A stretch of 64,000 nt of DNA. It comes from Blastococcus sp. CT_GayMR19. Its GTDB lineage: Bacteria > Actinomycetota > Actinomycetes > Mycobacteriales > Geodermatophilaceae. The notes beneath the pieces are model-generated. The model was not told where the DNA came from, searched no databases, and worked only from the letters and a program-made list of their open reading frames with translations. Within the stretch, counting starts at the first letter, position 1. Each line of letters starts with the position of its first letter. The position numbers and the translations under genes are program-made. This document shows, piece after piece, positions 2,637 through 49,512 of the stretch. The stretch is from contig NZ_SPQL01000011.1 of the NCBI RefSeq assembly GCF_004570385.1, forward strand, positions 1 to 64,000, in the 5' to 3' direction.

Positions 2637-2642
2637 TACGGT
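2637..2642 (+). promoter_or_regulatory. -10 box TACGGT of a leaderless promoter
   Basis: TACGGT is followed by 7 nt (GACCCCC) and then an ATG at 2650. The same -10 to start geometry occurs at several other genes in this window. Transcription would begin at or next to the ATG at 2650, which opens a five-codon ORF rather than the FHA gene itself. Confidence 0.45.
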
Positions 2643-2649
2643 GACCCCC

Positions 2650-2667
2650 ATGCGCGGTGGGCGATGA
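2650..2667 (+). CDS. Five-codon leader ORF (MRGGR) overlapping the FHA-HTH start
   Basis: ATG CGC GGT GGG CGA TGA. The start sits where a leaderless transcript from the TACGGT box at 2637-2642 would begin. Its stop overlaps the downstream start as ATGA (2664-2667), the usual layout for translational coupling. It may serve only to load ribosomes for the FHA gene. No function is claimed for the peptide. Confidence 0.35.
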   Translation: MRGGR

Positions 2668-3287
2668 CCGGCGCGGGCACGGAGGGTCCGCTCCTGGTGT
2701 ACCGGGACGACACCGGGGCCCAGCGGTTCCTCGCCCTCCAGGCCAAGACCTCGGTGACCATCGGGCGCAGCTCCGCCTGCGACATCCGGCTGCCCTGGGA
2801 CGAGCGGGTGTCGCGGGTCCACGCCGGTCTCGACCTCGTCGGTTCCGACTGGACGCTCGTCGACGACGGCCTGTCCCGGAACGGAACGTTCCTCAACGGG
2901 GACCGCCTCAACGGCCGGCGCCGGCTGCGCGACGGCGACACGTTCGTGCTCGGCTCGACGTCCTTCCGCTTCAGCGACACCACCCGGGCCACGTCCCAGC
3001 TGACGACGGTGGGGGAGCAGCTGGTCACCTCGGCGTCGCTGTCGCCGACCCAGCGGCAGATCGTCATGGCGCTGTGCCGGCCGTACAAGCACGACGACCC
3101 GTACGCCACCCCGGCCTCCAACCAGCAGATCGCCGACGAGCTGTTCCTCAGCGTCGACGCGGTGAAGACCCACCTCCGGCTGCTCTTCCAGAAGTTCCAG
3201 ATCGAGGACCTCCCGCAGAACCAGAAGCGCGTCAAGCTGGTCGAGCGCGTCCTCGGTCTCGGCCTCGTCAGCCGCCGGGATCTCTGA
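2664..3287 (+). CDS. FHA domain protein with C-terminal helix-turn-helix
   Basis: 207-aa cytoplasmic regulator. An FHA domain covers about residues 25-100, with the phosphothreonine-binding landmarks GRSSACDI (34-41), SRVHA and LSRNGTFLNG. FHA domains bind phosphothreonine on targets of kinases such as PknA and PknB. Residues about 120-205 hold a LuxR/GerE-like winged or helix-turn-helix segment (SNQQIADELFLSVDAVKTHL), suggesting phosphorylation-dependent DNA binding. The ATG at 2664 is the first start in this frame close to the FHA domain, and it overlaps the stop of a five-codon ORF. The gene diverges from the GH15 gene. Targets are unknown. The domain call is firm; the regulatory role is inferred. 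Confidence 0.85.
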   Translation: MTGAGTEGPLLVYRDDTGAQRFLALQAKTSVTIGRSSACDIRLPWDERVSRVHAGLDLVGSDWTLVDDGLSRNGTFLNGDRLNGRRRLRDGDTFVLGSTSFRFSDTTRATSQLTTVGEQLVTSASLSPTQRQIVMALCRPYKHDDPYATPASNQQIADELFLSVDAVKTHLRLLFQKFQIEDLPQNQKRVKLVERVLGLGLVSRRDL

Positions 3288-3445: not shown

Positions 3446-3865
3446 ATGATCCGTCCCTCAGCATCCTCCCGGCGAGTTCTCGGGTTCGGCCTCGCCGCCG
3501 CCGTCGCCTCCGGCATCGGCCTGGGCGCGTACACGCTCGGCTCCGCCGCCGGTTCGGACACGGTGTACTTCCCGCGCGCCGCGTCGGCCACGACCACCGA
3601 CTCCGCGACGCCGGGCACGGCCACCGGCTCCCCGACGTCGGCCGGCGCGCCCGAGGGCACGCCGTTGACGCTCGACCAGGCGACGGCGGTCGCGGTCGAG
3701 GCCGCCGCTCCCGGTCGGGTCGTCCAGTGGGACGAGGACCACGAGCCGACCGGCCTCCGGTACGACGTGACGCTGCTGCACGACGACGGCTCGACCACCG
3801 ATGTCGAGGTGGACACGGTCACCGGCCGGGTCACGAGCATCGACCACGACAACGACGGGGACTGA
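3446..3865 (+). CDS. Secreted or membrane-anchored PepSY domain protein
   Basis: 139-aa exported protein. The N-terminus has Arg residues followed by a hydrophobic helix ([19 protein letters not shown], about residues 10-28) acting as a signal peptide or anchor, then a Ser/Thr/Pro-rich linker. A C-terminal PepSY module of about 70 residues follows, with [20 protein letters not shown] and a [18 protein letters not shown] strand-rich half. The ATG at 3446 is preceded by GAAAGGA. PepSY domains are thought to modulate extracytoplasmic peptidases or bind metals; no partner is evident here. It lies 61 nt upstream of ino1 in the same direction and may be cotranscribed with it. Confidence 0.8.
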
Positions 3866-46185: not shown

Positions 46186-48654
46186 GTGACGGAGACCCCT
46201 GCCCGCGACCGCGTCGAGCCGGTCGACCTCCAGCAGGAGATGCAGCGCAGCTACATCGACTACGCGATGTCGGTCATCGTCGGCCGCGCGCTCCCGGAGG
46301 TTCGCGACGGCCTCAAGCCGGTGCACCGCCGCGTGCTCTACGCGATGTACGACCAGGGCTTCCGCCCCGACCGCAGCTACGTCAAGTGCGCGCGCGTCGT
46401 CGGTGAGGTGATGGGTAACTACCACCCGCACGGCGACACCTCGATCTACGACGCCCTCGTCCGGCTCGCCCAGCCGTGGTCGATGCGCTACCCGCTGGTC
46501 GACGGGCAGGGGAACTTCGGCTCCCCAGGCAATGACCCTGCGGCGGCGATGCGTTACACAGAGGCACGACTCACGCCGCTGGCCATGGAGATGCTGGCCA
46601 ACATCGACGAGGACACCGTCGACTTCCAGCCCAACTACGACGGCAAGAACCAGGAGCCCCTGGTCCTGCCCGGGCGCATCCCGAACCTGCTGATCAACGG
46701 CTCGGCCGGCATCGCCGTCGGCATGGCCACCAACATGCCCCCGCACAACCTGCGCGAGGTGGCGGCCGCCGTCTTCTGGGTGCTCGAGCACCCGGACGCC
46801 GAGCCGGAGGAAGCCCTCACCGCGTGCATGGAGCGGGTCAAGGGACCGGACTTCCCCACCCACGGGCTGATCGTCGGCCGCGAGGGCATCGAGGACGCCT
46901 ACCGGACGGGTCGCGGCTCGGTGCGCATGCGCGCCGTCGTCACGGTCGAGGAGGACTCCCGCGGTCGCGTCCAACTGGTCTGCACCGAGCTCCCGTACCA
47001 GGTGAACCCGGACAACCTGGCCGAGGCGATCGCCGAGGCGGTCAAGGACGGGCGCCTGCAGGGCATCAGCGAGATCGCCGACGAGTCCAGCGACCGGGTC
47101 GGCCGCCGGCTGGTCATCACGCTGCGCCGCGACGCCGTCGCCAAGGTCGTGCTGAACAACCTCTACAAGCACACCCAGCTGCAGACGACGTTCGGCTGCA
47201 ACATGCTCTCCATCGTCGACGGCGTCCCGCGGACGCTGCGGCTGGACGAGCTCATCCGGTTGTACGTGAAACATCAGATCGAGGTCATCCAGCGGCGCAC
47301 CCGGTACCGGCTGCGCAAGGCCGAGGAGCGCGCGCACATCCTGCGCGGCTACGCCAAGGCGCTCGACCACCTGGACGACGTCATCACCCTCATCCGCAAC
47401 AGCGAGTCGGCGGACGCCGCCCGCGGCGGGCTGATGGAGCTCCTGGACATCGACGAGATCCAGGCGACCGCGATCCTGGACATGCAGCTCCGCCGGCTGG
47501 CCGCCCTGGAGCGGCAGCGGATCCTCGACGAGCTGGCCGAGATCGAGGCCCGCATCGCCGACCTGCAGGCCATCCTCGACTCCCCCGAGCGGCAGCGGCA
47601 GATCATCCACGACGAGCTGGCCGAGATCGTCGAGAAGTACGGCGACGACCGGCGCACGCAGTTCGTCGCGAACGACGGCGACGTCTCGATGGAGGACCTC
47701 ATCGCGGAGGAGGAGGTCGTCGTCACCATCACCCGCACCGGGTACGCGAAGCGGACGAAGAGCGACCTCTACCGCTCGCAGCGCCGCGGCGGCAAGGGCG
47801 TGATGGGTGCGGCCCTCAAGCAGGACGACATCGTCGACCACTTCTTCGTGGGCTCCACCCACGACTGGATCCTGTTCTTCACGAACAAGGGCCGGGTCTA
47901 CCGCTCCAAGGCCTACGAGCTGCCCGAGGCCAACCGCACGGCCCGTGGCCAGCACGTGGCGAACATCCTGGCGTTCCAGCCGGACGAGAAGATCGCCCAG
48001 GTCATGCAGATCAAGGACTACACGGTCGCCCCGTACCTGGCGCTGGCCACCGCGCGCGGCCAGGTGAAGAAGACCCGGCTCACCGACTTCGACTCCCCGC
48101 GTCAGGGCGGCGTGATCGCCATCAACCTGCGCGACGGCGACGAACTGGTCGGTGCGGTGCTCATCGAACCCGACCAGGACCTGCTCCTGGTGACCCGCAA
48201 GGCGATGTCGATCCGGTTCACCGCCGACGACGTCGCGCTGCGGCCCATGGGCCGGGCCACCGAGGGCGTCCGGGGGATCTCGCTGTCCGACGACGACCGG
48301 CTGCTGTCGATGATGGTCGTGCAGGAGGGCGTCGACGTCATGGTCGCCACCGAGCGCGGCTTCGCCAAGCGGACCGGGATCGAGAACTATCCGAACCAGG
48401 GGCGCGGTGGCAAGGGCGTGCTCACCGCCGACCCGAAGGCCCGCAAGGGTGCGCTGGTCGGCGCCCTGGCGGTGACCCTCGGCGACGAGCTCTACGCGAT
48501 CACGTCGAGCGGCGGCGTGATCCGCACCCCGGTCAACGGGGTGCGGCACAACAAGGACCGCGCGACCATGGGTGTCAAGCTCATGAACTTGCCGGAAGAC
48601 GTATCGATCGTGGCGATCGCGCGCACTACCGACAATGACGAGCCCGCGGCCTAG
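46186..48654 (+). CDS. gyrA: DNA gyrase subunit A
   Basis: 822-aa cleavage subunit. The catalytic tyrosine is Tyr124 in AMRYTEARL. The quinolone-determining region is [19 protein letters not shown]; Thr85, Ser86 and Asp89 correspond to Ala90, Ser91 and Asp94 of M. tuberculosis. The C-terminal six-bladed pinwheel begins near residue 510 with the GyrA-box QRRGGKG. GTG 46186 opens a short charged tail ahead of [22 protein letters not shown]. It lies 144 nt downstream of gyrB with the 15-bp duplication in the gap. Confidence 0.97.
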
Positions 48655-48822
48655 TGTGACCGCAATGGCAGGTCAGAACCGGGAACCCCGTCGTCACCGA
48701 CGGGGACCCGGGTCCGGCCCGTCCAGCCACGGAACTGACCTGCGTCCGGGCGGCCGTACCGGCCACCTCTCGGCCACGGTCTCGAGGGAGCGGCCCGCGC
48801 CGCTGGGGAACGGGAGACGCGC

Positions 48823-49512
48823 ATGAGCGACCGGACGAAGAGTTCGGTGCGCACCGATTCCCGGGGCGGCGACGACGACGCGCCGGGAGGCAGCACCCCG
48901 GGCGAGGCCACGCCGGTCACGTCCACGCAGTCCATCCCGGGTGCCGGCACCGCCCGCGCACAGGGCTCGGGTGGCCCCGCCTCGGGTGCCCAGCCGGCCG
49001 TCTCCTCGAATCCGGTCCCGCCGATCCCGGCGACCGGCAAGGGGCCGGTCGCGCCGGCCACGGGTGCCGCCTCCGCGCCGGGTGCGCCCGACGCCACCGG
49101 CTCTGTCGCCTCGCGGATCCGCGGCCGCGCCGGCAAGGGTGGTCGTGGCCCGCGCCGCGCCCGCCTGCAGCTCCGGCACGTCGACATCTGGTCGGCGTTC
49201 AAGATCTCGTTCGTGCTGTCGATCGCCATGTTCTTCATCTGGATGGTGGCGGTCGGCGTGCTCTACGGGGTGCTCAGCGCCCTCGGGGTGTTCGACACGC
49301 TCAACGACCTGTTCGGCCAGTTGAGCACGGCGTCGGGCAGCGAGCTCGGCGGCGACGTGGTCACCCCTGGGCTGGTCTTCGGCGGAGCGGCCGTCATCGG
49401 GGCGATCAACATCGTGCTCATGACGGCGCTGTGCACCGTCGGGACGTTCATCTACAACCTCTGCTCCGACCTCGTCGGCGGCCTCGAGCTCACGCTGTCC
49501 GAGCGCGACTGA
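48823..49512 (+). CDS. DUF3566 membrane protein
   Basis: 229-aa protein found directly after gyrA in actinobacteria (Rv0007 position). A 110-residue Ser/Pro/Gly/Ala-rich disordered tail leads to the DUF3566 domain with RLQLRHVDIWSAFKISFVLS, and two membrane helices (IAMFFIWMVAVGVLYGVLSA and VIGAINIVLMTALCTVGTFIY). Function is unknown; the conserved place suggests a link to septal or membrane processes. ATG 48823 follows GGGAG. The dispersed repeat starts 3 nt after its stop. Confidence 0.9.
   Translation: MSDRTKSSVRTDSRGGDDDAPGGSTPGEATPVTSTQSIPGAGTARAQGSGGPASGAQPAVSSNPVPPIPATGKGPVAPATGAASAPGAPDATGSVASRIRGRAGKGGRGPRRARLQLRHVDIWSAFKISFVLSIAMFFIWMVAVGVLYGVLSALGVFDTLNDLFGQLSTASGSELGGDVVTPGLVFGGAAVIGAINIVLMTALCTVGTFIYNLCSDLVGGLELTLSERD

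Follow-up and report, generated by a model that had tools for sequence, protein, structure and literature searches.

A leaderless-type mini-ORF coupled to an FHA–HTH regulator gene in Blastococcus and its relatives: a probable route of ribosome delivery

Introduction

How do ribosomes reach the start codon of a regulator gene when a reading frame of only five codons ends on top of it? The question arises in the window (the whole stretch of DNA analysed here: 64,000 nucleotides of Blastococcus sp. CT_GayMR19, contig NZ_SPQL01000011.1, positions 1 to 64,000), where a gene on the + strand (2664–3287) encodes a 207-residue protein with an FHA domain and a LuxR/GerE-type HTH domain. Pfam recognizes both (FHA, 1.8e-17; GerE, 1.1e-6); NCBIfam gave sub-threshold matches only for this protein. 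Mycobacteria are known to have leaderless small ORFs in large numbers. The first-pass annotation of this DNA had placed a TACGGT box exactly 7 nt before an ATG at 2650, had read MRGGR from that ATG to a TGA overlapping the FHA start and had suggested that translation of the regulator might depend on this leaderless peptide and on re-initiation. Here, we follow this reading through the genome, the family, a second genus and more distant homologs.

Results and discussion

The locus and the proposed mechanism

The box, its distance and the short frame all agree base for base with the first description. The −10-like hexamer TACGGT (2637–2642, + strand) is followed by the 7-nt spacer GACCCCC (2643–2649) and by a leaderless-type mini-ORF, ATG CGC GGT GGG CGA TGA (MRGGR; 2650–2667, + strand), the TGA of which (2665–2667) lies in an ATGA stop/start overlap (2664–2667, + strand) with the ATG of the FHA–HTH gene. 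Within the mini-ORF, a GG-rich and weakly Shine–Dalgarno (SD)-like stretch, GGTGG (2656–2660, + strand), is predicted to pair with the 3′ end of 16S rRNA. The regulator gene is flanked on one side by a divergent GH15 gene with a trehalase-like N domain (716–2509, − strand) and on the other by a PepSY-domain protein gene (3446–3865, + strand), followed by an inositol-phosphate synthase gene. No hexamer pair at the mini-ORF promoter passed a sigma-70 consensus scan, which leaves the promoter at 2637 called from its −10 element only. A later start for the FHA gene, the GTG of an LVYRDD stretch, was rejected: this codon is GTC in one close ortholog (G111), and all seven retain MTG at 2664.

From this architecture and the conservation described below, we propose that the FHA–HTH transcript would begin at A2650, with the −10 box 6–7 nt upstream, and that 70S ribosomes would load leader-free on the 5′-terminal AUG, read four or five codons as far as the UGA and, after terminating there, re-initiate at the overlapping AUG at 2664. 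The GG-rich mini-ORF would probably assist as a weak internal SD, keeping the terminating ribosome near the FHA start. We regard this course of events, from leaderless entry to re-initiation, as probable.

Box and spacing across the genome

The box and its spacing were surveyed in 424 kb of the window's genome, in which a home-made codon-usage gene finder called 349 ATG/GTG starts. Of these starts, 21 have TANNNT at a spacing of 6 nt and eight at 7 nt, and each of the other spacings from 0 to 30 accounts for 0–2 starts. The earlier statement that 7 nt is the spacing of other leaderless genes here holds in that the spacing is real, although 6 nt is the commoner one. TANNNT-N6/7-RTG occurs 56 times on the two strands of the 424 kb; in-frame gene starts make up 45 of these sites, against 0–5 at each control spacing, which makes TANNNT followed by 6–7 nt a good mark of a leaderless start in this genome. 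The remaining sites are two coupled short ORFs (the mini-ORF at 2650 and 48665–48826), one ORF ending near a gene and eight others.

Coupled short ORFs as a class show no clear enrichment at spacing 6–7 in the 424 kb (two there; one each at control spacings 3–4, 11–12 and 13–14). Under a box looser still than the one used for the second genus below, the background in the window's genome is nine coupled leaderless-like ORFs among 350 genes. The pattern TANNNT-N7-ATG-N11-ATGA occurs once in the whole 4.57-Mb genome and TANNNT-N6-ATG-N11-ATGA nowhere in it. When upstream stretches were generated by Monte Carlo simulation from a dinucleotide chain, 0 to 6e-4 of the random stretches per genome contained a coupled leaderless-like mini-ORF. 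The arrangement before the FHA gene is not chance.

The window holds a second leaderless-type coupled ORF at 48653–48826 (TAGTGT, 7 nt, ATG, 53 codons). Its TGA overlaps the ATG at 48823 of a gene for a membrane protein with DUF3566, and its 53-residue product has no Pfam match.

Close orthologs in the family

A search of 112 genomes of the family gave ten with a match at 1e-40, seven of which, including the window's own, are close orthologs (83–100% identity). A box-like hexamer, 6–7 nt, an ATG, four or five codons and the ATGA overlap are present in all seven, and the start codon, frame and stop of the mini-ORF are retained throughout; loss of the mini-ORF in relatives was looked for and was not found among them. 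The hexamer is TANNNT in six orthologs and CACCGT in the seventh (G098), and its distance from the ATG is 6 nt in four and 7 nt in three. The peptide reads MRGGR in five, MGRGR in one and, through a 3-nt deletion, MGGR in one; only one frame-relevant indel was found among the seven.

Conservation is concentrated at the junction. Mean identity is 34% over the 60 nt upstream of the box and ∼36% over the six bases preceding the mini-ORF ATG, whereas the ATG itself is fixed. The final bases ahead of the FHA start are nearly fixed, with fourfold sites of the gene at 71% mean pairwise identity, and the 16-nt run GTGGGCGATGACCGGC is invariant, the longest such run in the gene being 14 (651-column codon alignment of the seven orthologs). 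The upstream neighbour is a GH15 gene in only four of the seven, an ABC transporter gene in two and another co-directional gene in one. Because the upstream genes differ and the region above the box has diverged, the mini-ORF element travels with the FHA gene rather than with what lies upstream. What selection seems to maintain is a start codon at the 5′ end, its frame and the overlap of stop and start.

In G111 an apparent GH15 gene start persists intergenically (L004, about 2780–2900) beside what is now an ABC transporter neighbour; this remnant suggests that the GH15 gene was deleted beside the FHA gene in this genome. Outside the orthologs, a fourth match to the pattern among 397 genomes of the order (G257) lies within a long ORF of another gene and was discarded as chance.

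Pairing with 16S rRNA

The anti-SD letters were located at the end of a 16S gene in the window's genome. The transcribed 8–11 nt of the mini-ORF pair with them at −6.2 kcal/mol here and at −6.2 to −9.5 kcal/mol over the seven orthologs, much as ordinary starts do (median −6.0) and more strongly than random sites (median −3.4). As these energies fall within the range of ordinary starts, the internal SD may assist re-initiation or may act alone. In the latter case transcription from ∼2650 would leave a very short leader, the 30S subunit would bind at GGTGG and start directly at 2664, and the 5′ AUG would be incidental; the invariance of the GTGGGCG stretch in the seven orthologs would also be accounted for. 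We nevertheless consider this rather unlikely, since the ATG is kept in seven of seven orthologs next to six poorly conserved bases, and since in the genus described below a start codon with this spacing from the promoter recurs in the coupling frame, within a different sequence. The predicted accessibility of the 5′ end in the orthologs (0.40–0.65) is similar to that of 29 leaderless genes (quartiles 0.36–0.70), and a role for a hairpin was set aside on these grounds.

An equivalent arrangement in a second genus

An FHA–HTH homolog was found in all 98 genomes searched of a genus of the same order, g31, which is probably Nocardia. In the genus and family of the window the gene is patchy, with close matches in two of 16 and seven of 112 genomes, respectively. 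The g31 upstream regions (one locus per genome; 30 loci and 68 stretches) were classified by anchoring on the promoter alone, TTG-N16/18-[CTG]ANNNT-N6/7-RTG. This pattern is present at 74 of the 98 loci and absent from 24; its usual form is TTGCTC-N17-CACCAT, the boxes being mostly CACCAT and not TANNNT. At 61 of the 74 promoter-bearing loci the stop of the mini-ORF overlaps the FHA start as RTGA. Two others have a TAGTG (1-nt) overlap, eight have a stop ≤22 nt upstream, one is fused in frame, one is of another kind and one was not framed by the script. The promoter RTG stands in the coupling frame at 64 of 73 loci and out of it at nine; as g31 species share ancestry these counts are not probabilities, and the firmer point is that the lengths fall into whole-codon classes, the RTGA mini-ORFs having mostly 15 or 16 codons and otherwise 7, 13, 20 or 32. 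Other ways of counting give 64 of 98 loci with RTGA, a tally that depends on the choice of box and misjudges L233 and L234 (the latter, by eye, is also coupled), and 66 of 98 with a coupled ORF behind any box. One g31 species (L205) carries a natural fusion: its promoter GTG opens a frame that continues into the FHA gene, so that the mini-ORF region is joined to the regulator.

The idea of a leaderless-type mini-ORF coupled to the FHA start is thus supported by conservation, in the seven close orthologs and in this g31 equivalent. A further alternative is that a 5′-terminal AUG captures ribosomes and boosts initiation at 2664 by itself, translation of the mini-ORF being unnecessary. E. coli ptrB offers a precedent: its 5′-AUG is described as aiding the downstream start partly without uORF translation, an AUC mutant falling to under 8% and a start-stop mutant coming back to 40% (PMC4965119). 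At the FHA gene we find such a role quite improbable, because the whole-codon length differences and the RTGA ending at 61 of 74 promoter-bearing g31 loci indicate that the frame matters.

The g31 peptide is unlike the Arg/Gly peptide of the seven close orthologs, and its constraint is weak at most: the 14 distinct forms with 15 codons have a pN/pS of 0.68 and the 22 distinct ones with 16 codons a pN/pS of 0.89, compared with 0.80–1.64 in the other frames. Because the g31 mini-ORFs differ in length in steps of whole codons and their peptides are little constrained, selection seems to preserve the coupling rather than the peptide, which is probably dispensable. Attenuation by the peptide, with the Arg/Gly codons or the product sensing a signal and setting FHA levels, seems to us very unlikely. 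It would draw on the composition of the seven ortholog mini-ORFs, all Arg/Gly after Met, and on their final codon, the rarely used CGA (two of 156 Arg codons in the seven FHA genes); however, CGA supplies the A that the ATGA overlap requires, the Gly codons may merely spell the GG-rich stretch, and the g31 peptide is different and barely constrained. This weak constraint favours ribosome delivery over a signalling peptide, and as like arrangements with different peptides occur in many relatives, ribosomes are probably delivered to the regulator through the tiny frame.

Distant homologs

Phylum-wide, 13 of 396 genomes carry a match at 1e-35. At eight of 21 distant homolog loci the FHA start itself lies 6–7 nt past a −10-like box and looks directly leaderless. 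Coupled ORFs of leaderless-like type are present at three of the 21 and absent from 18; one of the three is internal and therefore spurious, and the other two are L113 in family f48 and L115 in g31. The coupled ORFs at L105 and L122 were taken as chance, one being gene-internal and the other having a weak box. In family f48 (50 genomes searched, 21 loci) 12 loci look directly leaderless, and a convincing coupled ORF is present at L113 only (TATCGT-N7-GTG, ten codons, CGATGA junction). A 61% homolog in another family (L103) seems, by eye, to have a 13-codon SD-led ORF that starts with TTG and runs across the FHA start in a different frame, perhaps another uORF solution.

Comparison with known systems

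Shell et al. (2015; PMC4633059) describe mycobacterial leaderless small ORFs coupled through RTGA as over-represented, with the coupling sometimes conserved while the peptide diverges. The FHA mini-ORF resembles this class in being a short ORF with a TGA that overlaps the RTG of the next gene; its own RTG would lie at the 5′ end. Theirs were mapped by transcription start sites and ribosome profiling, whereas the FHA mini-ORF is a prediction from sequence. It also differs in having four or five codons, in occurring in other families and at one regulator gene, and in being near-invariant in Geodermatophilaceae. Shell et al. define small proteins as having 5–50 residues, so that MRGGR, with five, is at the lower limit and the MGGR ortholog, with four, is below it.

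The E. coli uORFs with a 5′-terminal AUG (PMC4965119) are likewise short, and that of rhaB encodes eight residues and ends in an ATGA overlap. Unlike the present case, those mRNAs are described as chosen for a canonical SD, and they belong to another clade and promoter type. An engineered leaderless bicistronic design for Corynebacterium glutamicum (PMC10367133) also has a leaderless fore-cistron feeding a coupled gene, but it is artificial, with longer fore-cistrons, a strong SD and a TAATG junction. In a review of 2025 on translational coupling (PMC12548453), bringing ribosomes in through a short ORF is treated as a function that has been proposed. Our literature search found no paper on transcription starts in Geodermatophilaceae or on this FHA–HTH gene. 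The kind of element is therefore already known, from the mycobacterial coupled leaderless small ORFs; what this case adds is how deeply such an element is conserved at a single regulator gene.

Conclusions

Roughly a hundred species thus form a natural series at one gene. Their coupled mini-ORFs range from 4 to 32 codons, and beside them stand a version with a 1-nt overlap, others whose stop falls just short of the FHA start, a single in-frame fusion and homologs that look directly leaderless; with such a series, the idea of ribosome delivery can be tested by comparison as well as with reporters. More tentatively, and with considerable doubt, the FHA–HTH regulator may be dedicated to entry through a mini-cistron across lineages of the Mycobacteriales, the mini-ORFs having evolved repeatedly or been inherited from an ancient ancestor with the peptide free to change. 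If this is true, synthesis of this phosphothreonine-reading regulator would track the capacity of the cell for leaderless initiation and ribosome recycling, for example under stress.
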